From the IMG/VR virus record IMGVR_UViG_3300007960_000213, positions 1 to 22,740 of that record: DNA of 22,740 bases; one strand, 5' to 3'. The stretch comes from a virus. A model generated the notes under the pieces. That model saw only the letters and a list, made by a program, of their open reading frames with translations. It ran no database searches and was not told the origin of the DNA. Every line of letters starts with the position of its first letter. The first letter of the stretch is position 1. Both the position numbers and the translations under genes were made by a program. This document shows, piece by piece, positions 2,976 through 18,338 of the stretch.

Positions 2976-3305
2976 ATGAGTATAGAAGTTTATGATGACA
3001 TATGGGAGTGCTTGGATAGCAAGGCAACCGTAAAAGAGCAGATAGCAGTACTACAGGAAGCTATACAGGCATTGCGTATAGCGATGAGGAATTTTGCTAG
3101 TAAGTCTAACGTTGAGGAGTATCAGTTAAATGATGGTCAAACTATAATACGGACTAAATACAGGAGTCTAAAAGAAATGGCTGATGCAATGTTTGTACTA
3201 AAGAGAGATTTGCAGGATCTACTACAGTCTCCAAATGCAATTGGTAGAATATTTAAGCTGAGAGATAGAGATACATTCGGGAAAGGAGGTAATTATGGCT
3301 TTTAA
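2976..3305 (+). CDS. gpW-like head-tail joining protein
   Basis: This 109-residue protein lies between terL and portal, the slot of lambda gpW, which binds the portal after DNA packaging and makes the first layer of the connector. Residues about 1-43 form a helical region (KEQIAVLQEAIQALRIAMRN). About 46-60 read as a beta hairpin (VEEYQLNDGQTIIRTKY), followed by the helix SLKEMADAMFVLKRDLQDLL, giving the helix-hairpin-helix pattern of the gpW fold. It is longer than lambda gpW (68 residues) because of extensions at both ends. The last 11 nt overlap the portal start, suggesting coupled translation. The call is by fold pattern and synteny, not strong identity. Confidence 0.6.
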   Translation: MSIEVYDDIWECLDSKATVKEQIAVLQEAIQALRIAMRNFASKSNVEEYQLNDGQTIIRTKYRSLKEMADAMFVLKRDLQDLLQSPNAIGRIFKLRDRDTFGKGGNYGF

Positions 3306-4956
3306 ATTGAAGTTTTGGGAAAAGGCACCCAAGGTTGAAACTCATGATGAGAAAATGGCAAGAGCACTGATGGGTAACAATGATAATGAAAACGAAATTA
3401 CTCCCGGTATCGGCAAGATGGCCACATTTAATGGCTATGAGTATCCTGTTGTTAATCGTATTTACGATGGAGAGAAAGAGCAAGGAGAGTTAGGTGCTCC
3501 TGTAAGTTGCAATATGTCGTACAGGACATTACAGGCTAGAGGTTGGCAGATATATACAGAGTCAGACATCGCAAAGACGTTGGTAAGAACTCTGGTTGAT
3601 GGAGTATTAGGATCTGGACTAAAATGTCAATCTCAGCCTATTAAGGAGATGATACCTGAGATCGGAGAAAAGCAGTTGGTTGACTTGAAAAAGCAAATGG
3701 AATTAAGGTATAGGTTATACGCTGAGGACAATAACTCTACTTATTCAAAAATGAATAACTTTCATGAGTTAACCAGAGAGCAGTATGAGGCCATGATTGT
3801 TGGTGGTGACTGTCTTCAGGTGTTTAGATATGACAATGGGCCAAACAAGGAGGTTATAGATGGAAGATTAATTCAATCTCCTGATATTTCCATGGAGGAG
3901 AAAGCGAGGAAAAGAGGTAACGTAATAATTAATGGCGTTGAGATAAATAAAAAAACCAGAGAGCATGTTGCTTATTATGTTCTTCAGTCAGATCTTACAT
4001 ATAATAGAATACCAAGAAAATCACCATTAGGAAGGATTCAAGCATGTATGGTATATGGAGATAAGTACAGGTCGGATTCAGTAAGAGGTATGCCATTGAT
4101 GATTAGATCAATTGAAAAGATCAAAAAAATGGATAGATACATTGAGGCAATGGTTGGAGGAGCCGAGGAAAGAGCAAAAATACCTTTCTTCTTCGAACAT
4201 AATCACTTCTCTACAGGTGAGAATCCAATGATGAAAGCTATATTAGATGCTGCCAAAATGGGAGAGGGAGCGCAAAACCTTCCATTGTACGATGGTGCAG
4301 CATTAATAGAGGCAGGAAAGAAAATTGCAGAAGTATCGGGTAAAACACCTGCAAACCTTCCTGTAGGTGCTACAATGAAAGCTATTGACAGTACTGTAGA
4401 ATTGAGACTTAGGGATTTTTGTGACGGTACATTTCTTTACATATGTGCATCGTTAGGTATTCCAATTGAAATAGCATTAAGTAAGTTTGAGCAGTCATTC
4501 TCGGCTTCCAGAATGGCATCTGAGATATGGAAAATGCAGGTTAAATTATACAGAAAGCAGATCGAAAGAAATATATATCAACCATTCTATAACTACTTTA
4601 TAGATACAGAGGTTAAGATTGGAAGATTATCTATACCGGGTTATGAGGCAGCGGTAAGCAGTGAGGATATAATAAAGTTACAAGCATATAGAAGCGCAAG
4701 ATTCACAGGTCATGGTGTTCCTAATGCTGATCCTGTAAAAGAAGTTAAGGCTGTCGTATTGATGTTGCAAAATAATCTCGTATCACATGAGCAAGCAGCA
4801 GAACTATTAGCCGATACAGAATGGGATGCAGTAATTGATAAACTTGGTGCCGAATATGAGGTAATCAAGAGTGTAATCCCGATTGAATATCAGCGACCTC
4901 CAAATGCGGAGACTGATAGTGCAGAGTTGCCTGATGAGGGTGAAAGTGCAGAGTAG
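3295..4956 (+). CDS. Portal protein, lambda gpB family (PF05136)
   Basis: The portal is the dodecameric ring at the capsid vertex through which DNA enters and leaves. At 553 residues it is of usual size. The N-terminal half has the family pattern of a Trp/Arg-rich segment followed by LVRTLVDGVLGSGLKCQSQP (about 95-114), which matches the conserved NTLVDNVVGSGL-type motif. AMVGGAEERAKIPFFFEH (about 283-300) and FEQSFSASRMASEIWK (about 400-415) are also typical. The C-terminus is acidic (ending in DSAELPDEGESAE). It is the last gene of the first block, and a strong terminator begins 25 nt after its stop. Confidence 0.9.
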   Translation: MAFKLKFWEKAPKVETHDEKMARALMGNNDNENEITPGIGKMATFNGYEYPVVNRIYDGEKEQGELGAPVSCNMSYRTLQARGWQIYTESDIAKTLVRTLVDGVLGSGLKCQSQPIKEMIPEIGEKQLVDLKKQMELRYRLYAEDNNSTYSKMNNFHELTREQYEAMIVGGDCLQVFRYDNGPNKEVIDGRLIQSPDISMEEKARKRGNVIINGVEINKKTREHVAYYVLQSDLTYNRIPRKSPLGRIQACMVYGDKYRSDSVRGMPLMIRSIEKIKKMDRYIEAMVGGAEERAKIPFFFEHNHFSTGENPMMKAILDAAKMGEGAQNLPLYDGAALIEAGKKIAEVSGKTPANLPVGATMKAIDSTVELRLRDFCDGTFLYICASLGIPIEIALSKFEQSFSASRMASEIWKMQVKLYRKQIERNIYQPFYNYFIDTEVKIGRLSIPGYEAAVSSEDIIKLQAYRSARFTGHGVPNADPVKEVKAVVLMLQNNLVSHEQAAELLADTEWDAVIDKLGAEYEVIKSVIPIEYQRPPNAETDSAELPDEGESAE

Positions 4957-4980
4957 TAAATAATGGTTTATAACGAAGAA

Positions 4981-5006
4981 GGGAGGCTTAACGGCCTCCC
5001 TTTTTT
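4981..5006 (+). terminator. Intrinsic terminator after portal, with the minus-strand gene ending inside it
   Basis: GGGAGGC (4981-4987) and GCCTCCC (4994-5000) form a perfect 7-bp GC-rich stem with a 6-nt loop, followed directly by TTTTTTATTTT. This is a textbook Rho-independent terminator for the + strand. The stop codon of the converging minus-strand gene lies in the loop, so the hairpin may also slow that transcript, although the U-tract on that side (TTCTTCG) is poor. Confidence 0.85.
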
Positions 5007-5227
5007 ATTTTCTTTAGTTCCTGTTCCAGAACTTCCAGATCTGTTGTTGAGCAGTTGGATAGGAAAGTTTCTATATCTGTGGTTAAGTATTTCTTGTTTT
5101 CAGCTCTTACAGCTCTTGTTATGTATTTGCTTACGTTTGTATCGCCTGATAGCTTCATTGCCCGTCTCATTTCATGGTGAATTTCTAGTGGCATTGTGTA
5201 TCCGGATCTATATATTCCGTTGCTCAT
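4988..5227 (-). CDS. Probable ribbon-helix-helix DNA-binding regulator
   Basis: This is the only gene on the minus strand, 79 residues from the ATG at 5227. The frame is open further, to 5311, but the longer start lies upstream of the gene's own -7 element (5250-5257), so the short start is preferred. Residues about 10-46 read as an Arc/MetJ/CopG-like ribbon-helix-helix: a short strand (YTMPLEI), a first helix (HHEMRRAMKLSG), a turn (DTN), and a second helix (VSKYITRAVRAENKKYL). A charged second helical part (about 50-75) could mediate oligomerisation. It converges with portal over the terminator and diverges from the protease gene. A role as a local repressor or autoregulator of the two divergent promoters is inferred. 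The antitoxin alternative is less likely because no toxin gene is adjacent. Confidence 0.62.
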   Translation of the reverse strand: MSNGIYRSGYTMPLEIHHEMRRAMKLSGDTNVSKYITRAVRAENKKYLTTDIETFLSNCSTTDLEVLEQELKKIKKGGR

Positions 5228-5249
5228 AATGTCTGATGTTTGTGCATTA

Positions 5250-5257
5250 CAAATATA
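5250..5257 (-). promoter_or_regulatory. Promoter element of the minus-strand regulator (TATATTTG)
   Basis: On the minus strand, TATATTTG fits the TAnnTTTG consensus exactly and ends 22 nt before the ATG at 5227, giving a short leader. A -33 TTTG at the standard distance is not present. The element overlaps the palindrome TTTGT-GCATT-ACAAA (5239-5253), a possible operator. Confidence 0.5.
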
Positions 5258-5312
5258 GTGAAATGGACAAAATTCACCTAACGGGTTATTAAATTGCAAT
5301 GAGTGAGACACT

Positions 5313-5337
5313 TACATTTGTTTTGTACGTAAATTTG
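5313..5337 (+). promoter_or_regulatory. Promoter for the protease-capsid-tail operon (two -7 elements)
   Basis: Two exact TAnnTTTG elements occur in the divergent gap: TACATTTG at 5313-5320 and TAAATTTG at 5330-5337, the latter 17 nt before the protease start. A TTG at 5294-5296 is 16 nt before the first element, slightly short for a -33 site. Because the terminator at 4981-5006 isolates the upstream block, a promoter is needed here to express everything from 5355 onward. Confidence 0.55.
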
Positions 5338-5349
5338 TATCAAACAAAT
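5316..5349. promoter_or_regulatory. Inverted repeat over the head-tail promoter, candidate operator
   Basis: ATTTGTTT (5316-5323) is the exact reverse complement of AAACAAAT (5342-5349), and the promoter element TAAATTTG lies between the arms. The pentamer TTTGT also occurs in tandem at 5317-5326 and again at 5334-5338, with ACAAA at 5344-5348. Clustered short half-sites of this kind are typical targets of ribbon-helix-helix repressors, and the gene for such a protein is adjacent. Binding is an inference. Confidence 0.4.
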
Positions 5350-5354
5350 CAAGT

Positions 5355-6332
5355 ATGCCAGATATATACCTATACGAAACGATCAGTGAGTTTTCTGCTG
5401 AGAAAATAAATAGAAGCTTAACGAATAACGAAGGTAACGATGTTACAATCAGAATGACAACCAGAGGAGGTTATACCCCTGCAGGTGCAGCAATGATTAT
5501 GGGTATTGATAAATTCCCCGGGAAAGTAAAGATGAGTGTAGATGGAGATGTAAGCTCTATGGGTGCTATAATGCTTTTATATGCAGACGAGGTGGAGATG
5601 TCAGAAATGGCAGAGGTTATGTTTCATAAGGCTGCATATCCAGACTGGTATATGCCAAGCGATGATGAGAAAGCAAACCTAAAAAGAGAGAATGACAGAT
5701 TCAAAAAGAAAATGGAGAAAAGACTTGGGGAAGCAGGTCAGGCAACCATAGATAAGATATTTGAAGAAGGTAAGCGAAATGACGTTTATTTGACCGCTAG
5801 ACAGGCTAAAAAGATTGGTTTAGTAAATAAGGTCATAACACTTGATCCGAGTCAAAAGGCAGCCGTTAAAATGGCTATGGAAAATATGCCTAAAGAAGGA
5901 GTAGATAATAAAAAATCAAATACTAATATTAATAAAAACGCAAATAATATGTTGGAAATTACCCAAGATCAGTTAGATGCAAAACTAGCTAAAGCGGAAA
6001 AGGCAGGGTATGATAAGGGCCTTGAAGCAGGGAGAAAAAAAGAAGCTGACAGACGTTCAGCTTGGGAACAATTTGCTGATGTTGATCCTGATGCAGTAAA
6101 GACAGGATTAGAATCAGGCGAAGAGATGTCTCGTTCTGAGGAGATCAGAATGATGAGATTGGCAAATCAGAAAGATGCCAAAAAAGAACTAGAGAATGAC
6201 AATGCTGACGGTGTAGAAACCGAAGGACAAGATTCTCCTGTAGATGAGAAGACTGCAGAACAAAAGCGCAAAGAAGCTGTTCGAGCAGAGGTAGAAAAAG
6301 CGTGTGGAATAACAAGTAAAACTAAGGAATAA
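5355..6332 (+). CDS. ClpP-type prohead protease fused to scaffolding domain (lambda gpC/Nu3-like)
   Basis: The N-terminal part (about 1-165) is a ClpP/S49-like serine protease. The oxyanion segment TTRGGYTPAG is at about 35-44. The nucleophile is Ser68 in GDVSSMG (compare GxxxSMG of ClpP), the base is His91 in VMFHKAAY, and the acid is probably Asp143 in NDVYLTARQAKKIGLV. After an Asn/Lys-rich linker (about 182-197), residues 199-325 are charged and helical (KLAKAEKAGYDKGLEAGRKK), as expected of a scaffold released by self-cleavage. Met199 (ATG at 5949) could be an internal start giving free scaffold, as in lambda C/Nu3. It is the first gene after the divergent promoter, and its stop overlaps the next start (TAATG). 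Confidence 0.85.
   Translation: MPDIYLYETISEFSAEKINRSLTNNEGNDVTIRMTTRGGYTPAGAAMIMGIDKFPGKVKMSVDGDVSSMGAIMLLYADEVEMSEMAEVMFHKAAYPDWYMPSDDEKANLKRENDRFKKKMEKRLGEAGQATIDKIFEEGKRNDVYLTARQAKKIGLVNKVITLDPSQKAAVKMAMENMPKEGVDNKKSNTNINKNANNMLEITQDQLDAKLAKAEKAGYDKGLEAGRKKEADRRSAWEQFADVDPDAVKTGLESGEEMSRSEEIRMMRLANQKDAKKELENDNADGVETEGQDSPVDEKTAEQKRKEAVRAEVEKACGITSKTKE
5949..6332 (+). CDS. Possible internal-start scaffold protein (Nu3-like)
   Basis: An in-frame ATG at 5949 begins the scaffold-like part of the protease gene, directly after an Asn/Lys-rich linker. It would give a separate 127-residue helical, highly charged scaffold, parallel to lambda Nu3 nested in C. The upstream bases are A/T-rich (AAAACGCAAATAAT) with no Shine-Dalgarno, which is acceptable for Bacteroidota translation. 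This is inferred from architecture alone. Confidence 0.35.
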   Translation: MLEITQDQLDAKLAKAEKAGYDKGLEAGRKKEADRRSAWEQFADVDPDAVKTGLESGEEMSRSEEIRMMRLANQKDAKKELENDNADGVETEGQDSPVDEKTAEQKRKEAVRAEVEKACGITSKTKE

Positions 6333-6796
6333 TGGCAGATGCATCTATAAGAAACGCAACAGCGAATCAGTTGACAGTTGACTATCAGAGGAATAGACTT
6401 TCCTTAATGTATACTGATACCGTAAGAAGGGATTATGCTAACATCTCAGGATCAGAAGAGAGTGCAGTAATAGGTACACTTATGGGCGTAGTTGCTGCAA
6501 CAGGTAAATATGTTCCTATGCAATCAAACGCTTCGAATGGTTCACAGGTTCCTGTAGCTATATTGTTTCAAAATATTGAGGCAGCAGAAGCAGCAGCAGA
6601 GATTGATAACATTTTACTTCTTAATAGTGGTGATGTTAATAGTAATCTGTTAGTATTTGCTAAGGAGGGAGATACGCTTGATACTCTAGTAGCATCAGCC
6701 GGTGGAGATACTAAATCTGTAAGAGATTGGTTGATTCAGAATTGCAAATCATTAAAGCTTGTTGCCGTTGAGGATTCAAGCGAGTTCGATAACTAA
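6332..6796 (+). CDS. Head decoration protein, lambda gpD-like
   Basis: This 154-residue protein sits between protease/scaffold and major capsid protein, the slot of lambda gpD, which trimerises on the expanded shell and stabilises it. The diagnostic segment is GTLMGVVAATGKYVPMQSNA followed by SNGSQVPVAILFQNI (about 48-82), matching the family pattern of a start-up GTVL.., a P....ASDGS loop and a PVGVL strand. An Ala/Glu stretch (EAAEAAAEID) follows, then a beta-rich C-terminal part. The start is fixed by the TAATG overlap with the preceding gene. Confidence 0.8.
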   Translation: MADASIRNATANQLTVDYQRNRLSLMYTDTVRRDYANISGSEESAVIGTLMGVVAATGKYVPMQSNASNGSQVPVAILFQNIEAAEAAAEIDNILLLNSGDVNSNLLVFAKEGDTLDTLVASAGGDTKSVRDWLIQNCKSLKLVAVEDSSEFDN

Positions 6797-6811: not shown

Positions 6812-7903
6812 ATGAGTTTAACTATAAGAGAAGCGATGAGTGAGTTCTCATATGCCGTAATGCAAAAAGTAGAAGTTCTTCCGGAATTAGATACTGGATT
6901 CAAAAACTTCTTCAAAGAAAACGAAAATGTTACCAGAGGGGTAAAAGTGTTTGTTGAAAGACAGGGTCGTCCGATAGCGAAAGATATTGCTCTCGAAGAG
7001 AAAGGTATCACCACAAGAAGAGATAAGTCAACAGAGAAATTCTATATACCTCCTTACTTTGATTATAAATTCAACTATTCTGCACTTGAAGAGTTTGAGC
7101 CTTTTATGGGAGAGGATAACTCAACAGCTGATATGGGAATCTTACGTGAGTTAGTTGAAAATACAGCTAAAGGAGTTCAGGAGAATGCTGATAGAATGGA
7201 GAGACGTAGAGAGCTTCAAAGAGCACAATCTTTACTTACAGGTATAGTTACCATGGATAATGGTGATAATATCAACTTCCAACGAAAATCTGCATCTCTT
7301 GTAGCATACGATGCAGCTCATGGATGGGATGTAGATACTGTATCTCCTGACATCATACTTAAGCAAGGTGCAGAGTTTCTTATAAAAGAAGGTAAAGTAA
7401 GTACAAAAAGACCTTACAATATCATAGCAGGTTCAGCAGCAATTTCAGCGTTGAAAGATAATCCTATTTTTCAAAAATATACTGACAATAGAAGATATTC
7501 GGAAGGTCAGTTTGAAACGGCAGCACCAACAGAAGGACTTGTAAGTCATGGACGTATTAATGCCGGTGATTTTAGATTTAATCTTTGGGGATACCCTGCA
7601 TATTACGATGATCCTGATACAGGTTTAGATACTTCTTATATGGATACTAACAAGATTATCATACTTCCTGATGCACAGGTGTTCTCAATGCAGTTCTGTG
7701 GTGTTAAAGGATGGGATAGAGATCCGTATCAAGCAGGAGCAGTTCCAAAGATCAAAAAGACTAAAATGTACTCTTATGAGATTAAGTCTATTGAGTCTTG
7801 TGCATTAGAATTAGGTTTGAGATCATCATTTACTCCGATTTTGGATAAAGTAGATGCAGTATTCACAGCTCAGGTAGTAGCAGATCAACAAGGACAGGGA
7901 TAA
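6812..7903 (+). CDS. Major capsid protein, lambda gpE family (PF03864)
   Basis: This is the HK97-fold shell subunit. At 363 residues it matches the size of lambda gpE (341). Segments typical of the family are the N-terminal start SLTIREAMSEFSYAVMQKVE, the strand VKVFVERQGRPIAKDI, the E-loop region KFYIPPYFDYKFNYSALEEF (about 77-96), the long spine helix NTAKGVQENADRMERRRELQ, and the late PDAQVFSMQFCGVKGWDRDP followed by a MYSYEIKSIESCALELGLRS region. There is no sign of an N-terminal delta domain, which fits with the separate scaffold in the preceding protease gene. Confidence 0.92.
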   Translation: MSLTIREAMSEFSYAVMQKVEVLPELDTGFKNFFKENENVTRGVKVFVERQGRPIAKDIALEEKGITTRRDKSTEKFYIPPYFDYKFNYSALEEFEPFMGEDNSTADMGILRELVENTAKGVQENADRMERRRELQRAQSLLTGIVTMDNGDNINFQRKSASLVAYDAAHGWDVDTVSPDIILKQGAEFLIKEGKVSTKRPYNIIAGSAAISALKDNPIFQKYTDNRRYSEGQFETAAPTEGLVSHGRINAGDFRFNLWGYPAYYDDPDTGLDTSYMDTNKIIILPDAQVFSMQFCGVKGWDRDPYQAGAVPKIKKTKMYSYEIKSIESCALELGLRSSFTPILDKVDAVFTAQVVADQQGQG

Positions 7904-8783: not shown

Positions 8784-9167
8784 ATGGGGACATTGCTAGA
8801 TATAGCGAGAGAAGATGCGAGAAGTTTTGTCAGTGATACTGACGGCTTCTCGACCCCTCTAACTTTCACAACACTTACAGATGAAGAGTTCACAATAAAT
8901 GGCCTTGCATCAGTTCATAGTCAATCATTCGATTCAGATGGATTGCCGGTAATAGGAGATAATTCACACATATGTTTTTCGGAAAAAGATGTGAATGATG
9001 CCGGTTACACAACAAGAGATGCAAATGGTAATGTAAATATAAGAGGTTGGAGAGTTGCATTTAATCACTCCGTTGGGGCAGTAAGTGCAATACTTAGCAG
9101 ACCTGAGCCGGATAGTACGTTAGGATTAATAAGAGTAATGATTACCAATTACAACGACAATGAGTAA
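8784..9167 (+). CDS. Head-tail closure protein, gpFII-like
   Basis: This 127-residue protein sits between the gpFI-like and tail terminator genes, the place of the lambda gpFII or Mu gp36-type head closure proteins that plug the connector and receive the tail. It starts with an amphipathic segment (LLDIAREDARSFVSDTDGFS), then beta-rich sequence (LTFTTLTDEEFTINGLASVH) and a late GWRVAFNHSVGAVSAILSRP. The pattern of a beta-strand domain carrying a Ser/Asp-rich loop fits the family. Its ATG abuts the previous TAG, and its end overlaps the next start by 8 nt. The call is mainly by order and size. Confidence 0.5.
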   Translation: MGTLLDIAREDARSFVSDTDGFSTPLTFTTLTDEEFTINGLASVHSQSFDSDGLPVIGDNSHICFSEKDVNDAGYTTRDANGNVNIRGWRVAFNHSVGAVSAILSRPEPDSTLGLIRVMITNYNDNE

Positions 9168-10398
9168 AATAAGCACGATAATAGAATTTGCGAACCACGA
9201 GAAGGTTAGGGCTAAGATAGCTCAGATACTTGCTGTGGAGATAGCAAATCAGATCAGTCTTATTGATGCTGAATTGGCAGATAGTCCAACTCCTGAAAGA
9301 GAAGAAGTACTGAATATTTACAAAGCTGCATTACCCACAACAGTATGGGATAGCAGATTTTTACAGCCAGGACCGGATGAATTGCCTTTCCTAAATGTTG
9401 TATTCATGAAAAGTCCTCTTGATGGACTTAATACAGTGAGTACTCAGGATGGAATGGTGCAGTTTGTAGTTGAAGCATGGCAGGGAGCCGAAACCGATTC
9501 TGAAAATAGAGGAGATTATTTAGCTTCAATTTATTTGCAAAGACTGCTTGAAGTTGTAAGGTCTATACTTCAATACAGAGGCTATCTTAATCTTGATCTT
9601 GATCCTTATGTGGGTAATATAAATAAGGTAAGTGATATTGAGATAATGCAACCTGAAGATAATGCCGGTAAGAACGCTCAAAACCTTATTTACGGTAAAT
9701 TATCAATTACAATTAGAATTCCTGAGTGTTCAGATAATTTACCCGGGATAGCATGGTTTGAGTCAGTAACAGGTGTTGAACTTAACGAATCAGAGTTAGG
9801 ATATAGTTGGGATGTAATTCAGAGTGAGGACTTTTTATACAATTTGGCAGCAGCAGAAAAGAATATTGCACCTGATGGTTATAGAGTTCCTACCAGAGCA
9901 GATTATTTATTGCTATCATCGACATTATCTAATCCTAAAGGGGAAAAATTAAAATCGACTACAGGTTGGACTAATCCGGGTACTGATGAATTTGGTTTCA
10001 ATTGGCTTAATAAAGGCTACAGACAAGAGGATGGTCAATTTGCAGAGTTAATTCAGGGCTTTTATTCTGGATTAAGATTGCAGCCTAATCCACCGGGTAT
10101 TCCTGTTCCTGCAATGGCTGTTATACCAAACAATCAGGATTTGTTTTCATTGGATGATGTAGGTGCAAAATCAGGATTACCAATAAGGTTAATTAAGGAA
10201 GACTCAACAGACGAAGGTAGTTTTACCGATATTGATGGTAATGTTTACGGAACCACGAAAATAGGCGTTCAGGTATGGGCAACTAAAAATTTCAGATGTA
10301 CTAAATATAATGACGGAACACCTATCCCACGATTGGATAGTGACAGTGATTGGGAAAATGACACAGATGGAGCATATTGTATTTATAATATTAATTAA
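9160..10398 (+). CDS. Tail terminator protein with C-terminal permuted FISUMP domain
   Basis: Residues about 1-195 look like a tail terminator (lambda gpU / Mu gp37 type), which caps the tail tube and joins it to the head: LPFLNVVFMKSPLDGL (about 75-90), FVVEAWQGAETDSENRGDYL (about 102-120), the helix ASIYLQRLLEVVRSIL, and a last strand YGKLSITIRIP. Residues about 220-412 are a FISUMP module. First comes the half usually second (FLYNLAAAEKN, GYRVPTRADYLLLSSTL, LPIRLIKED), then the half usually first (DIDGNVYGTTKIGVQVWATK, YNDGTPIP, DGAYCIYN at the very end). The module must project from the neck ring. At 412 residues the gene is about twice normal terminator length because of the fusion. Module boundaries are by eye. 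Confidence 0.7.
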   Translation: MSKISTIIEFANHEKVRAKIAQILAVEIANQISLIDAELADSPTPEREEVLNIYKAALPTTVWDSRFLQPGPDELPFLNVVFMKSPLDGLNTVSTQDGMVQFVVEAWQGAETDSENRGDYLASIYLQRLLEVVRSILQYRGYLNLDLDPYVGNINKVSDIEIMQPEDNAGKNAQNLIYGKLSITIRIPECSDNLPGIAWFESVTGVELNESELGYSWDVIQSEDFLYNLAAAEKNIAPDGYRVPTRADYLLLSSTLSNPKGEKLKSTTGWTNPGTDEFGFNWLNKGYRQEDGQFAELIQGFYSGLRLQPNPPGIPVPAMAVIPNNQDLFSLDDVGAKSGLPIRLIKEDSTDEGSFTDIDGNVYGTTKIGVQVWATKNFRCTKYNDGTPIPRLDSDSDWENDTDGAYCIYNIN

Positions 10399-12881: not shown

Positions 12882-13027
12882 AAAGTTCAATAGCTGTAGT
12901 CGGCTTAGAAACAGGATGGAGTCCTGAGAGACTAGATAATTTGTACATGGATGATTATGATATTTATGGTTTGTATTGGTGGACCAGAGAGATTGATGAA
13001 TTAAACAAACGTAGTAACGATGGGTAA
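12815..13027 (+). CDS. -1 frameshift extension of the tail assembly chaperone
   Basis: The -1 frame relative to the chaperone gene is open from 12815 to a TAA at 13025-13027, overlapping the chaperone's end by 67 nt and the tape-measure start by 8 nt. It has no ATG until 12947. It encodes a protein-like tail: PFYKGRVHYDVKSSIAVVGL, then ETGWSPERLDNLYMDDYDIY and GLYWWTREIDELNKR. The pattern of GW.P..L..L.. plus an aromatic-rich end is like the extensions of other frameshifted chaperones. The likely slip site is the codon pair CTT-TTT at 12849-12854 within CCTTTTTA, where Phe-tRNA can re-pair perfectly in -1. The P-site pairing is imperfect, so this is not a canonical heptamer. The fused product would be about 208 residues. 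Confidence 0.65.
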   Translation, partial: QRLWVAAIHSEPFYKGRVHYDVKSSIAVVGLETGWSPERLDNLYMDDYDIYGLYWWTREIDELNKRSNDG

Positions 13028-14714
13028 AAAAACAACAGCTTGGGTAGAGTTTAGGGCTTTGGAAAGGGTGACTGCTCCTATACGGAAAATGTATAGAGTT
13101 TCTAAGCGTGTTTTTCAGTCAATGCGTTTCGATGTAAAAAAGTTTAGTCGTCAATTAAGAGTAGCTAATCAACAAGTAAATAAATTAACTTCAGGACTGA
13201 GAAGAGTAACACCCGGACTTGGATTACTGAGTGCCGGCGGGTTACTTTTGGGCGGGAAAAACGCTGTGCAAACTTTTGCACAAATAGAGGCATTAGGTAC
13301 ATCTATAGAATTCGCATCCGGTTCAGCAAAGGAGGGTGGCAAGAACATGAAGTTTTTAAAAGATATGTCAAAAGACTTAGCTATTGACTTCATGAGTGCA
13401 GCAGAAGGATTTAAGCTATTTACAGCATCAGCAGCAGCGGAAAAAGTACCAATGGATCAAATTAGAGACACTTTTAAGGGAGTTTCTAAAATGATTCGTG
13501 TTCAGGGATTGGACGCAGAAAAAACAATCTCGATATATCGCGCTCTTGGTCAGATGTATAGCAAAACCCGGGTCATGGCACAAGAAATGAACTTACAGCT
13601 CGCAGAAGCCCTCCCGGGCGGTAAGGCATGGATGGCTATGGCAGGTAAATATAAAAATGTTGCTGAGTTATCTAAGGAGATGGAATTAGGTAATGTAATC
13701 TCAAAAGAAATATTGCCTGAGTTTGGTAAAATATTGGATCAGATTGCATCTCCAGGTGTAATGAAAGCTATGATGACTGCCAACGCTAAAATTACCAACT
13801 TAGCAAACGCTTGGTTATTTTTGAAAATGACAATAGGCGAAATGATAGTTAATACAGGTGTGTTGGAGTATATCGACAAAGTAATATCATCAGTATATAA
13901 GTGGTTAGATGCAAATAAGCAGCTTATCGGTCAGAATATGAAAAAATGGTTCGATAACTTTGTTGATTTTGCTAAGTGGATAATTGTAAATCGAAAGGAA
14001 ATAATATCAATCATAAAAGGGATAACATTAGCATTTATAACATTCAAAGCCGTTATAATAGGAATGAATATTGCTGCATTTTTCACTAATCCTATAGGGT
14101 TGGCAATCGCAGCAGTTGCAGCATTAATCGGATTGTTAACTTACGCGATAGATAAGGGTAGTAATATTCAAAGTGAAATAGTTAGCGGTCAAAAGCACAT
14201 GGTAGGATTTTTGGAGCAATCATTTACTGCATTATCTGTAATGTGGGATGGGATATGGGAGCTTGACATGAATAAAATTATGGGAGGTCTTCACATAATG
14301 TATTTAAGGATTAGAAGAATGTTTAAATCTTTGGAGGCTGTGTGGCACTCAATTAATCCAAGAGGACTAAATTATAAAAAGGAGTTAATGGCAAAGGCTT
14401 TGGCAGAAGAAAGAGCAATAGGAATAAAGCAAGCGCAAATAATCAAAGAGATTAATGCAGGTACTTATTCTTGGGGATCTCATAGTGCAGAAGTAGATGA
14501 AGGTGCATCTATTACTCCTGAAAGAGCTGAACTCCTTGATAGAATATCAAAAAAGATGCCAGATGCTTTGGAAAAATGGGGTGTTACAGATACATCATTA
14601 ATAAATGTAAATCTTAAAAACCTAACAAATACTCCGATGGAAGCAGAAGTTGTAGATAGTGCAGATTATACAAAATTGTGGCTTACGGGACCTAATGGAG
14701 AGATAATAAGATAA
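13020..14714 (+). CDS. Tail tape measure protein
   Basis: This is the rod-like protein that sets tail length and is ejected before the DNA. The 564-residue protein starts with a basic helical region (about 15-65), then a Gly/Leu-rich segment (LGLLSAGGLLLGG). The tape-measure N-terminal family motif is at about 171-206: SIYRALGQMYSKTRVMAQEM then NLQLAEALPGGKAWMA, corresponding to the usual G.v..EEL.QQL.E.lPGA. A long hydrophobic part (about 328-376: IISIIKGITLAFITFKAVII and then IGLAIAAVAALIGLLTYAI) is the expected membrane-inserting segment. At the commonly used ratio of about 0.15 nm per residue, the tail would be roughly 85 nm long, an inference only. Confidence 0.85.
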   Translation: MGKKTTAWVEFRALERVTAPIRKMYRVSKRVFQSMRFDVKKFSRQLRVANQQVNKLTSGLRRVTPGLGLLSAGGLLLGGKNAVQTFAQIEALGTSIEFASGSAKEGGKNMKFLKDMSKDLAIDFMSAAEGFKLFTASAAAEKVPMDQIRDTFKGVSKMIRVQGLDAEKTISIYRALGQMYSKTRVMAQEMNLQLAEALPGGKAWMAMAGKYKNVAELSKEMELGNVISKEILPEFGKILDQIASPGVMKAMMTANAKITNLANAWLFLKMTIGEMIVNTGVLEYIDKVISSVYKWLDANKQLIGQNMKKWFDNFVDFAKWIIVNRKEIISIIKGITLAFITFKAVIIGMNIAAFFTNPIGLAIAAVAALIGLLTYAIDKGSNIQSEIVSGQKHMVGFLEQSFTALSVMWDGIWELDMNKIMGGLHIMYLRIRRMFKSLEAVWHSINPRGLNYKKELMAKALAEERAIGIKQAQIIKEINAGTYSWGSHSAEVDEGASITPERAELLDRISKKMPDALEKWGVTDTSLINVNLKNLTNTPMEAEVVDSADYTKLWLTGPNGEIIR

Positions 14715-15175: not shown

Positions 15176-16371
15176 TGGCTGAAAATATACCAAAAATATC
15201 AGAACTAGAAAGTCAATACTTAAACAACTATGCTTCAAGGTTGGGGGTGGATGTTTCGGACTTGGGCGATTCTTACATAGTAGAGGCTAAGACTCAGGCA
15301 GCAGTGGTATATTCTTTGTATCTTAAATTATCTAAGGTTCAGAATAATATATATCCGGACTTGGCAGAGATGGATGTATTGATGAGATACGGATATGCTA
15401 TATTAGGAAGGTATCCTGAACCTGCTACACAGGGCGTATTTTCGGCTATAGCATTGGGCACAGGAACTATTCCTGCACAAACTCAATTTGTGGCGAATAA
15501 TGATACATCGGCAGCAGGTAAATTGTATATAGTTGATCAAGATTGGATAATAAGTACATCGGGTATAATCGAGATAAGAGCATTAGAGGGCGGCATAGCA
15601 TCAGATCTTAATCAGTCCGACAAGTTAACGTCAATACAGCCGTTAACTGGAATTGACAATGAAATAGTGGTTACATTGCCTGTTATTGTAGAGCCTGTAG
15701 ATGCAGAAGATATAGAACAGTACAGGCAGGATGTATTGGCAGGAATAAGAATACTTCCTCAGGGTGGGGCACCGGGAGATTATAGATTATGGACTCTGGA
15801 GATACCGGAAGTTCGCACAGTGTATCCATTTTTGAATACGACTGAGATAGGTGATGTGTTGATTTATGTAGAGGCCACACCGGAAGCGACAAAGGCAGGT
15901 GAAGAGACAGGAGTCCCAACACAGGATACGTTGGATGATGTATATACTGCTCCTTCAGGAGGTAATCCAGAGTCAGGGGCCGTAATATATGACTCGGTAG
16001 AGCAAAGGGGAAGAAAGCCTATTACAGTTAATAATATAATACCTCAGGCTGTGACACCAATACCTGTAGATATAGATTTTACAGACTTGTCAGATGAGAA
16101 TATAGCTGATTCCATAAGAACGGCACTTGATAGTTATCTGTATGAAATAAGGCCATTTGTTGCAGGGGCACAATCGTTGAGGAGTAAAAACGACATATTG
16201 ACAATTGGAGGAATCACAGCACAAATATTGGAGGTATTGACAGGAACAGGCATAACATATACAAATTTGGATATGAGTGTTTCAGGAGTAGGAAGCATTG
16301 CGAGTTTTACATTCCTGTTTGGTAATTATCCATATTTGAGAAATATAAATAACAATGGAAGTCCGATATGA
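15175..16371 (+). CDS. Baseplate J-like protein (Mu gp47 / P2 gpJ, PF04865)
   Basis: This is the wedge protein that links the baseplate hub to the tail-tip and fibre proteins. It has 398 residues. The order of features is the family's own: a helical N-terminus (SQYLNNYASRLGVDVSD), the beta part with G-rich turn (LEGGIASDLNQSDKLTSIQP), and then EPVDAEDIEQYRQDVLAGIR (about 172-191), corresponding to the G.D.E..E..R.R.l signature. Next come LPQGGAPGDYRLWTLEIPEV (about 193-212) and a beta strand GDVLIYVEA. The C-terminal half (RGRKPITVNNIIPQAVTPIP then VDIDF) is the usual peripheral domain. It overlaps the next gene through ATGA at 16368. Confidence 0.88.
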   Translation: MAENIPKISELESQYLNNYASRLGVDVSDLGDSYIVEAKTQAAVVYSLYLKLSKVQNNIYPDLAEMDVLMRYGYAILGRYPEPATQGVFSAIALGTGTIPAQTQFVANNDTSAAGKLYIVDQDWIISTSGIIEIRALEGGIASDLNQSDKLTSIQPLTGIDNEIVVTLPVIVEPVDAEDIEQYRQDVLAGIRILPQGGAPGDYRLWTLEIPEVRTVYPFLNTTEIGDVLIYVEATPEATKAGEETGVPTQDTLDDVYTAPSGGNPESGAVIYDSVEQRGRKPITVNNIIPQAVTPIPVDIDFTDLSDENIADSIRTALDSYLYEIRPFVAGAQSLRSKNDILTIGGITAQILEVLTGTGITYTNLDMSVSGVGSIASFTFLFGNYPYLRNINNNGSPI

Positions 16372-18338
16372 TAAAAGTAACTGACATAATACATAAACTT
16401 GTTTCCGGCCTATATCCAACAGGTAGGGCTTGGCGGTATGGTCGTGACTTTAAGAATATAGGAGCTACAGATATTACCGGGTATGGCTACTTGTATAATT
16501 GGTATGCCATGACTGATGATAATTTTTCAACGATAGAAAACTTTAGGATTCCTAATGATGATGATTGGAATGGATTATTTACTCACTTAGATCCGAATGG
16601 AGGTGTTAAGGCCAGTGGTATATTCGAATTGTGGGATGATGATGTTAGACGTAATTCGGAATATTTCGGACAATCAGGACTTGATTTAGTTGCAGGATGC
16701 AGGAGAACATCAGCAGGAACGTTTGATGGAACATTAGGTGAGTTCGCTGCATATGGATCATCTACAGAAGGTGCTACTCCCAGTTTATGCACATATTGGT
16801 TGCTGTATGCATCGGGAACCATATATCAGGATGTTACAGGAGGTCTTAAAAAACAAGGAAGTTCTGTTAGATTGGTTGCAGACGGAGATTATACATCTCA
16901 AATACTTGAAGATTACGATGGGAACAGGTATGGATCGGTTTACATAAACGGCCAAACATGGCTTACTGAGAACTATAGGTGTACGCATTTATCTGATGGA
17001 ACGTCAATACCAAATGTTACTGATGGTACAGCTTGGGGTGCTTTGACGACATTAGCGTACTGTGCATTTGATAACGAAGAGAATAATGTTACCCGCGAAA
17101 GTTTAAATAATGTGTCTTTGTCAGACAAAACGATGAGTGCTAAAACTCAGGGATATGATGATGTTAATACAAGTATTGGTAATATATTAAATCAGATTAT
17201 TCCAGACAACGATGCATTTGATTTAGATGATATTGAATCTTGGGAACGAGTTTTGGATATTGATAACAGCACCCTTACTAATGACCAAAGAAAAAATATA
17301 ATACTTGCAAGATTGTCATATCCAAATGGACAGTTGTATAGACAGACACAGGAATTTATACAAGAACAATTACGAGCCAACGGGTTCGATGTTTATGTGC
17401 ATGAGAATAGGTTTAATACCGGGACTAATCCTTTCCCGTTTGAGCCTGTAGATATTAATTCTGCAGTATATGGAAATGTGGTGTACGGAGAAACAACATA
17501 TGGCAATGTAGGTGTTAAGTATGATACATTACTATGCAATTATGTGGATAAAACAATTGACGAGGCAAATCAGCCTATAATATCAGATAAACAAAATAAT
17601 ATATTTTTCATCGGAGGAGAAGTTTATCCTGAGCAAGCATATATTGATCCTGCAAGAGAAAAAGAGTTTAGGCACTTGGTATTAAGTTTGAAACCTGCTC
17701 ATAGTGCTGCAGCTTTGATAACAGGCAGTAGTAATGTTGATAGAGGATACTTGTATAATTGGTATGCTTCACAGTTGGTAGGATTTAGTACTATTACAGA
17801 TTTTGATGTGCCAACTGATACAGAATGGGCAGCATTAGAGTCGTATATAAATAATGCATTCATAGACGGGAAAATATTAAAAGCAACGTATGGTTGGCCT
17901 ACGAATCAAGGGATAGATTTACATGGATTTGCAGCATTACCAAACGGATTAAGAAGTGGAACAGGTGTCTTTACTTCGGTAAGTGATAATTGTAGGGTTA
18001 TGTTATTAGACAATGCAACAAGTGCATATAAAGGAGTGTATATGTCTGATGCAGACGGGATAATAAATACAAACCCATTCCCAAATAGTATAGGATATAG
18101 TATTAGGATGATATATAAAGGTGGTGGAACCCCGGATAGTGTTGTTTATGATAAAGATGGCAATGCATATGATGTGGTCCAAATAGGTTCTCAATATTGG
18201 TTAGCACAGAACTACGCATGTACGCAATTGAGTGATGGAACTGAAATACCAAACATAACAGATGATACAGATTGGGGGAATGACACATCAGGAGCAAGAT
18301 GTGCAAGTAATAATGACGAAAGTACTGTTTTTAAATAG
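16368..18338 (+). CDS. gp48/gpI-like tail-tip protein with two permuted FISUMP modules
   Basis: The backbone is a DUF2313-type tail protein (Mu gp48, P2 gpI slot), which links the baseplate to fibres. Its N-terminus LVSGLYPTGRAWRYG (about 11-25) is separated from the rest (about 245-450, with SWERVLDIDNSTLTNDQRKN then IILARLS and IQEQLRANGFDVYVHE) by FISUMP module B (about 39-240). Module C follows at about 459-656 and ends the protein. Both modules begin GYLYNWYA, pass a P.D..W motif and an SVRLV or SIRMI strand, then DGNRYGSVYINGQTWLTENY or DGNAYDVVQIGSQYWLAQNY, and end in LSDGT.IPN. That order is circularly permuted relative to standard FISUMP domains. The middle part also has a repeated YGNVVYGETTYGN. 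The protein is about three times the length of a bare gpI-like protein. Confidence 0.78.
   Translation: MIKVTDIIHKLVSGLYPTGRAWRYGRDFKNIGATDITGYGYLYNWYAMTDDNFSTIENFRIPNDDDWNGLFTHLDPNGGVKASGIFELWDDDVRRNSEYFGQSGLDLVAGCRRTSAGTFDGTLGEFAAYGSSTEGATPSLCTYWLLYASGTIYQDVTGGLKKQGSSVRLVADGDYTSQILEDYDGNRYGSVYINGQTWLTENYRCTHLSDGTSIPNVTDGTAWGALTTLAYCAFDNEENNVTRESLNNVSLSDKTMSAKTQGYDDVNTSIGNILNQIIPDNDAFDLDDIESWERVLDIDNSTLTNDQRKNIILARLSYPNGQLYRQTQEFIQEQLRANGFDVYVHENRFNTGTNPFPFEPVDINSAVYGNVVYGETTYGNVGVKYDTLLCNYVDKTIDEANQPIISDKQNNIFFIGGEVYPEQAYIDPAREKEFRHLVLSLKPAHSAAALITGSSNVDRGYLYNWYASQLVGFSTITDFDVPTDTEWAALESYINNAFIDGKILKATYGWPTNQGIDLHGFAALPNGLRSGTGVFTSVSDNCRVMLLDNATSAYKGVYMSDADGIINTNPFPNSIGYSIRMIYKGGGTPDSVVYDKDGNAYDVVQIGSQYWLAQNYACTQLSDGTEIPNITDDTDWGNDTSGARCASNNDESTVFK
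16488..16507 (+). repeat. 20-bp direct repeat, copy 1 (start of FISUMP module B)
   Basis: TACTTGTATAATTGGTATGC here is identical to 17748-17767, exactly 1260 bp (420 codons) downstream, and encodes YLYNWYA. It marks the start of each FISUMP module in the tail-tip gene. In-frame recombination between the copies could swap or delete modules. Confidence 0.85.
17748..17767 (+). repeat. 20-bp direct repeat, copy 2 (start of FISUMP module C)
   Basis: This is the second copy of the repeat described at 16488-16507. The surrounding module sequence has diverged much more than this stretch, pointing to strong conservation of YLYNWYA, gene conversion, or a fairly recent module duplication. Confidence 0.85.

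Follow-up and report, generated by a model that had tools for sequence, protein, structure and literature searches.

The interval between the portal gene and the head maturation protease gene of this phage is probably a self-contained control cassette, made up of a terminator for the portal unit, a small minus-strand gene of the ribbon-helix-helix (RHH) type, and a divergent promoter region. The preliminary description of this DNA had considered a regulator at this junction a rarity, which is wrong for this phage group; many relatives carry a family of small RHH genes at the same place and on the same strand, together with a short motif at a fixed spacing before the protease gene and an association between that motif and residues of the protein's ribbon. 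Because of this family, motif, spacing, and ribbon association, we regard the portal-protease junction as a recurrent regulatory cassette, most likely in the relatives an autoregulated RHH switch that would make the protease, capsid, and tail genes a separate late unit. The window, as we call the whole stretch of 22,740 bases of viral DNA analyzed here, would carry a divergent version of this cassette, not detectably homologous to the RHH family of the relatives.

The window encodes terminase, portal, ClpP-type protease, decoration, and capsid proteins and a contractile-tail sheath (Table 1). The preliminary description had placed a minus-strand gene, a strong terminator facing the portal gene, and a gap with -7 elements in both directions at the junction, and all three are found there. 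The 398 nt between the portal stop (4956) and the protease ATG contain a single sizeable minus-strand ORF, which starts with ATG and would extend to 5311 from a GTG start, and its last codons are overlapped by the terminator-like hairpin, the RNA fold of which has an energy of -21.8 kcal/mol (z -5.6). The ORF antisense to it is judged noncoding, as its reading frame passes through the terminator hairpin and matches no family (no Pfam match at E 0.1). Elsewhere in the window, FISUMP (PF09603) domains occur in two proteins of the phage tail region, as two stretches at 9160-10398 and as four stretches around a Mu gp48-like core at 16368-18338, and a 138-nt gap (12882-13019) before the large ORF 13020-14714 has a minus-strand TAnnTTTG at 13013 with no minus-strand gene assigned to it.

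Table 1. Features at and around the portal-protease junction, in window positions
Feature	Position	Strand	Evidence or remark
Portal gene, last before the cassette	3295..4956	+	lambda-type, PF05136 E 9e-34; phrog_21
Hydrophobic ORF of 88 aa, antisense to P0001	4963..5229	+	judged noncoding
Intrinsic-terminator-like hairpin at the end of the portal unit	4975..5006	+	14 pairs, T-rich tail
Small regulator-like ORF P0001, probable RHH	4988..5227	-	79 aa, ATG; PF18064 E 2.4e-4, below cut-off
Divergent regulatory gap	5228..5354	.	127 nt, 30% GC
-7-like element TATATTTG of the putative regulator promoter	5250..5257	-	TAnnTTTG match
TTG, possible -33 partner of the 5313 box	5294..5296	+	
Direct repeat of 12 nt, its two copies 17 nt apart, spanning both plus-strand -7 boxes	5310..5338	+	
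-7-like element TACATTTG toward the protease gene	5313..5320	+	TAnnTTTG match
Inverted repeat, candidate operator	5316..5349	.	13-nt arms, 85% complementary
Second -7-like element TAAATTTG, 17 nt before the protease ATG	5330..5337	+	TAnnTTTG match
ClpP-type head maturation protease gene, first of the downstream unit	5355..6332	+	PF00574 E 8.4e-13; phrog_94
Head decoration gene, lambda D-like	6332-6796	+	PF02924
Major capsid gene, capsid E-like	6812-7903	+	PF03864

The promoter-like elements of the gap follow the Bacteroides consensus, reported as TAnnTTTG at -7 and TTTG near -33 (PMC7366714). Three or more such -7 boxes would occur in this gap by chance with a probability of 0.0016 (first-order Markov resampling). 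A TTG at near-canonical spacing is present for the 5313 site only, and the minus-strand box (5257-5250) is without a canonical -33 partner. The best-scoring inverted repeat of the gap, a pair other than the candidate operator of Table 1, is not significant (p 0.099), the TCC-N9-GGA motif of the relatives (see below) is absent from the gap, and an Rfam scan returned matches to MicX and sraA far under the gathering score.

The label "RHH-like" given to the gene in the preliminary description applies well to the family of the relatives and weakly to the window protein, P0001, which from its sequence is by itself a probable RHH protein. Its best match is the ParB C-terminal family PF18064, a plasmid ParB domain, at 21.6 bits against a cut-off of 27, and no curated RHH profile was matched above its cut-off. 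We take PF18064 to be founded on the pCXC100-type ParB. Centromere-binding proteins of that type have been described as containing an RHH domain (PMC5016525). The structure prediction suggested for the 79-residue protein, made with AlphaFold without relatives, placed helices at residues 14-27 and 33-42, as an RHH protein would have, and no strand, at a pLDDT of 51; this model was too poor for Foldseek, which listed no RHH protein and no useful structural match. Against the RHH family of the relatives, hmmsearch gave E 0.06 over a 6-residue stretch and hhalign a score of 9.7, inside the shuffle range, so that homology is not detectable. What P0001 shares with that family is its placement, on the minus strand of the portal-protease interval and divergent from the protease gene; its RHH identity, and the operator in the window, are suggested by this position and by weak similarity.

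The relatives were gathered by terminase and portal alignments and comprise IMG/VR contigs, a Pedobacter genome, and named Flavobacterium, Cellulophaga, and Shewanella phages. The productive searches were those with alignments against IMG/VR and with the terminase large subunit (TerL) alignment against genome contigs; single-protein scans of IMG/VR with the portal and TerL returned nothing, nor did the portal alignment over genome contigs. A profile built from the aligned small minus-strand ORFs and iterated over the ORFs of 239 sequences retrieved 71 ORFs (48 distinct loci and 23 near-copies of those loci and of L143), every one on the minus strand and between portal and protease. Grouped at 90% identity, the portals form 137 clusters, of which 45 have a member of the RHH family at the junction, 17 a gap shorter than 60 nt (including most of those nearest the window), two (the window and L039) an RHH-like gene of another lineage, two (L067 and L158) another small minus-strand protein (phrog_26076), and 28 other contents, mostly plus-strand cargo, with a few short geneless gaps and one minus-strand ORF outside the family (L250); the remaining 43 have no protease within the fetched stretch. 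These counts are not prevalences because one portal search was seeded with RHH-bearing portals. In an earlier, unseeded set of 59 loci, the junction held an RHH gene in 13 (including the window and L039), an HTH-like gene in two, cargo in 26, and no gene in 18, and the RHH label changed five times on the portal tree, with at least three changes forced by supported branches; the window's own row sits on a long branch and its placement is unsure. At L158 (5064-5588 and 5573-5770), a further minus-strand ORF, of 174 aa, comes after the small phrog_26076-like gene, and at L002, L037, L051, L064, and L077 the junction holds long multigene plus-strand cargo. Portals of the window type were found in 1 of 395 Bacteroidota genomes, and the RHH profile (A7) had weak matches in 24 of these genomes, mostly to ORFs of about 117-121 aa. 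The RHH protein of L222, sought in named phages, gave nothing convincing.

Profile and predicted-fold matches to known RHH proteins place the small minus-strand family of the relatives in the RHH superfamily. Taken singly, most members stay below every Pfam cut-off, but L258 matches PF19839 (RHH_9) above cut-off at 5e-8 and the family profile (A8) matches ORF56 (2k9i) at 7.6e-4; L039, of a separate lineage, matches PF01402 (RHH_1) above cut-off at 1.6e-6. About 10 family members are tandem single-chain dimers, with two RHH repeats per chain, and the tandem state requires nine changes for 10 rows on the portal tree. For example, the model of the tandem protein of L228 (pLDDT 68) has as its best Foldseek matches, none below E 0.001, the F-plasmid relaxosome chains 9f0x and 9f0y, which we take to be TraY, and a permuted single-chain Arc (1u9p), to which it aligns with a Z score of 7.8, against about 5 or less for other folds.

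The gaps between the RHH and protease starts of the relatives are mostly near 80 nt. Among 49 gaps (51 anatomies less L121, with no protease called, and L220, with a gap of 1; window and L039 included), TAnnTTTG occurs on the plus strand in 19, against 4.4 expected, and on the minus strand in 28, against 4.1 expected. Further removing the near-copies L156, L230, L244, and L261, the window, and L039 leaves 43 gaps; 38 gaps are of at least 66 nt. Of the 43, 14 contain an inverted repeat centered 44-58 nt before the protease ATG (null 1.6, maximum 6, in 200 resamplings), and 13 contain TCC-N9-GGA (null mean 0.18, maximum 3, in 500 resamplings; a near-match with spacing 10 in L205 excluded), whereas spacings of 7, 8, 10, and 11 and the reversed order occur in 1, 0, 0, 0, and 0 gaps. 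The nulls for boxes, repeats, motif, and ORF length are first-order Markov resamplings, not exact shuffles. The following distances to the protease ATG come from 44 loci (L220 restored) with protease starts set by an N-terminal peptide pattern, the called start of L234 being wrong. In 13 of 13 cases the center of the motif lies 51-54 nt before the ATG, whereas its distance to the RHH start varies (26-57), and of 13 plus-strand copies of TAnnTTTG, 10 have their end 4-9 nt short of the ATG. The motif is absent from the other 30 gaps and so is not strictly defining. The strong results come from position-anchored tests only, and individual tests of the best inverted repeat are weak, with p ≤0.05 in 6 of 45 gaps (window and L039 kept). 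TCC-N9-GGA occurs within 120 nt upstream of the protease in 14 of 44 RHH loci versus 2 of 51 non-RHH loci, both of the latter at other distances from the protease.

The motif also tracks the protein. All 14 proteins encoded beside it have E-x-R in the ribbon strand, compared with 8 of 30 encoded without it (Fisher 5.6e-6), numbers that are descriptive because motif and ribbon residues were noticed by visual inspection of one data set; among tree-independent pairs, about four of six changed the same way and none the opposite way (p 0.125). RHH protein and operator are neighbors and may simply be inherited together. Other arrangements exist. In L253 (4905-5014), an 11-bp repeat (ACGAGTACCTA-like) occurs five times head to tail beside a tandem RHH gene and takes the place of the inverted repeat; L135 and L131, two cases, encode proteins with an R-I-x-I ribbon and have TGTAGC half-sites in their gaps, as a direct and an inverted repeat, respectively. 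In the RHH-less locus L209 (2541-2610), a long perfect palindrome directly follows the portal gene, and a -7-like box precedes the protease gene.

From these sequence features, we infer binding, autoregulation, transcription starts, and an effect on the protease promoter in the relatives. The RHH protein would bind the inverted repeat of the gap, which in several loci overlaps the promoter of the RHH gene itself and would lie across its -33 region, as expected for autoregulation. In the 44-locus set, the frequency of T peaks 38 and 12 nt before the protease ATG, which puts the probable start of the protease transcript within a few bases of this codon. The operator would then be found near position -47 relative to that start, immediately preceding the -33 region of the protease-capsid promoter. 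The fixed distance between operator and protease start favors a direct effect on that promoter. The simplest scheme would thus be autorepression combined with direct activation or repression of the protease-capsid promoter, and RHH proteins such as AmrZ have been reported to do both. In the window, the terminator would close the portal unit, the promoters would start the protease unit, and P0001 may bind in the gap; protease, decoration, capsid, and tail genes would then be expressed as a separately timed late unit. The preliminary proposal that capsid and tail expression is set apart from terminase and portal thus gains support from the RHH genes, the fixed-distance motif, and the ribbon association of the relatives; for the window protein itself, the RHH signal stays weak, and no clear operator was found. 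For its further suggestion, that the structural genes are silenced in the prophage state, we find no support: of the family contigs, many of them fragments, 4 of 25 yielded a tyrosine integrase, 3 of 16 HTH_3, and none of 16 an rve-type transposase.

The gene could instead be a moron-like passenger, with its own promoter and terminator, lodged at a tolerant site of a late operon and serving another end, such as immunity, exclusion, or host regulation, while taking no part in capsid expression. We consider this rather unlikely, although the junction accepts plus-strand cargo in many relatives, the codon usage of P0001 is foreign, and, among the portals nearest that of the window (about 37-40% identity) for which a protease is present, portal and protease genes mostly abut, so that in the window the gene is inserted between genes adjacent in relatives. 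This insertion in a phage operon and the gene's own promoter-like sites fit the moron definition given in PMC2629481. However, while the plus-strand cargo is mixed, what the minus strand encodes is, with few exceptions, a lone small DNA-binding protein, in every case next to the protease gene, and 13 of 43 gaps carry the motif at its fixed spacing from the protease start.

It is unlikely that the inverted repeat of the relatives is an intrinsic terminator for portal read-through that abuts the protease promoter, with the RHH protein acting elsewhere. Such a terminator could itself set the fixed distance, the repeats of L202, L143, and L131 are followed by T runs (those of L202 and L143 being terminator-like), and 6 of 50 loci, the window included, score as plus-strand terminators. 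Most repeats, on the other hand, have short arms and no terminator score, and one spacing (N9) and one half-site recur and track the protein ribbon, which a terminator would not need.

The possibility that the window ORF is a chance run of 79 codons, the interval being only a terminator and a promoter that split head expression, is distinctly improbable. Its codon score (-0.03) is below the 5th percentile of the window genes (0.077) and near that of another minus frame, no homologue was found in IMG/VR, plasmids, or 395 Bacteroidota genomes (in phages, only matches at E 6-8), and the RHH-less loci L204, L209, and L251 have a promoter-like region upstream of the protease nonetheless. Yet the place, strand, and size of the ORF are those of tens of RHH genes, an ATG ORF of at least 79 codons arises in only 1.3% of Markov-resampled intervals, and the ORF has the PF18064 match and a minus-strand -7 box of its own. 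A lone antitoxin or partition-type RHH protein (RelB, VapB, or ParB-like) from a plasmid or toxin-antitoxin system is very improbable since, despite the plasmid ParB domain matched by P0001 and weak matches of L228 and L039 to antitoxin models, all these antitoxin and ParB matches are under cut-off and no toxin or ParA partner was seen at the junction, either in the window or in any listed locus.

The proposed control cassette has partial parallels in known systems. Arc is an RHH protein. The closest precedent is the ant moron of phage P22 (immunity I: mnt, arc, ant, and sar, between genes 16 and 9), which, as described in PMC2629481, likewise places small repressor genes inside a virion-assembly operon, is variable among relatives, and has a reported or suggested effect on late polymerase reading into the tailspike gene. 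The P22 repressors, however, control an antirepressor at a site preceding the tailspike gene, whereas the window has a single gene, which faces the portal gene and points away from the head protease gene, and no antirepressor was seen. The tandem members resemble single-chain Arc and TraY of the F plasmid, but TraY acts at oriT, the tandem genes lie at a phage head-gene junction, and P0001 is not a tandem and lacks a confident model. Aca repressors of anti-CRISPR operons are also small DNA-binding autorepressors that act on inverted repeats, Aca2 being an HTH regulator; unlike the junction genes, they partner an acr gene, and none was seen here. ORF56, a plasmid copy-control RHH protein, and pCXC100 ParB, the matches of the family profile and (below cut-off) of P0001, serve plasmid functions, unlike the junction genes. 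Finally, the bS21 gene of Bacteroidetes-linked phages also lies on the reverse strand among terminase, portal, protease, and capsid genes, but the product described in PMC9723584 is ribosomal and not a DNA-binding regulator, and the phages concerned reach 331 kbp. In a search of the open-licence literature, no description was found of an RHH gene sitting at the portal-protease junction or otherwise among the head genes of such phages.

Together, these data make it an even proposition that the Bacteroidota-linked tailed phages share an undescribed, widespread head-gene switch, consisting of a single minus-strand gene, between portal and head protease, for an RHH or an unrelated small protein and a fixed-position operator upstream of the capsid promoter, in which ribbon and operator change together, single-chain fusion has arisen repeatedly, and the window represents an independent, nonhomologous occupant. 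Head genes are usually regarded as one late block. If the proposed switch is real, a regulator kept at this junction across large divergence would mean that protease and capsid are timed apart from terminase and portal, which would bear on the order and stoichiometry of assembly. The paired variation of ribbon and operator would also make the family a natural library for the rules of RHH recognition, a question accessible with short DNA and 60-residue proteins.
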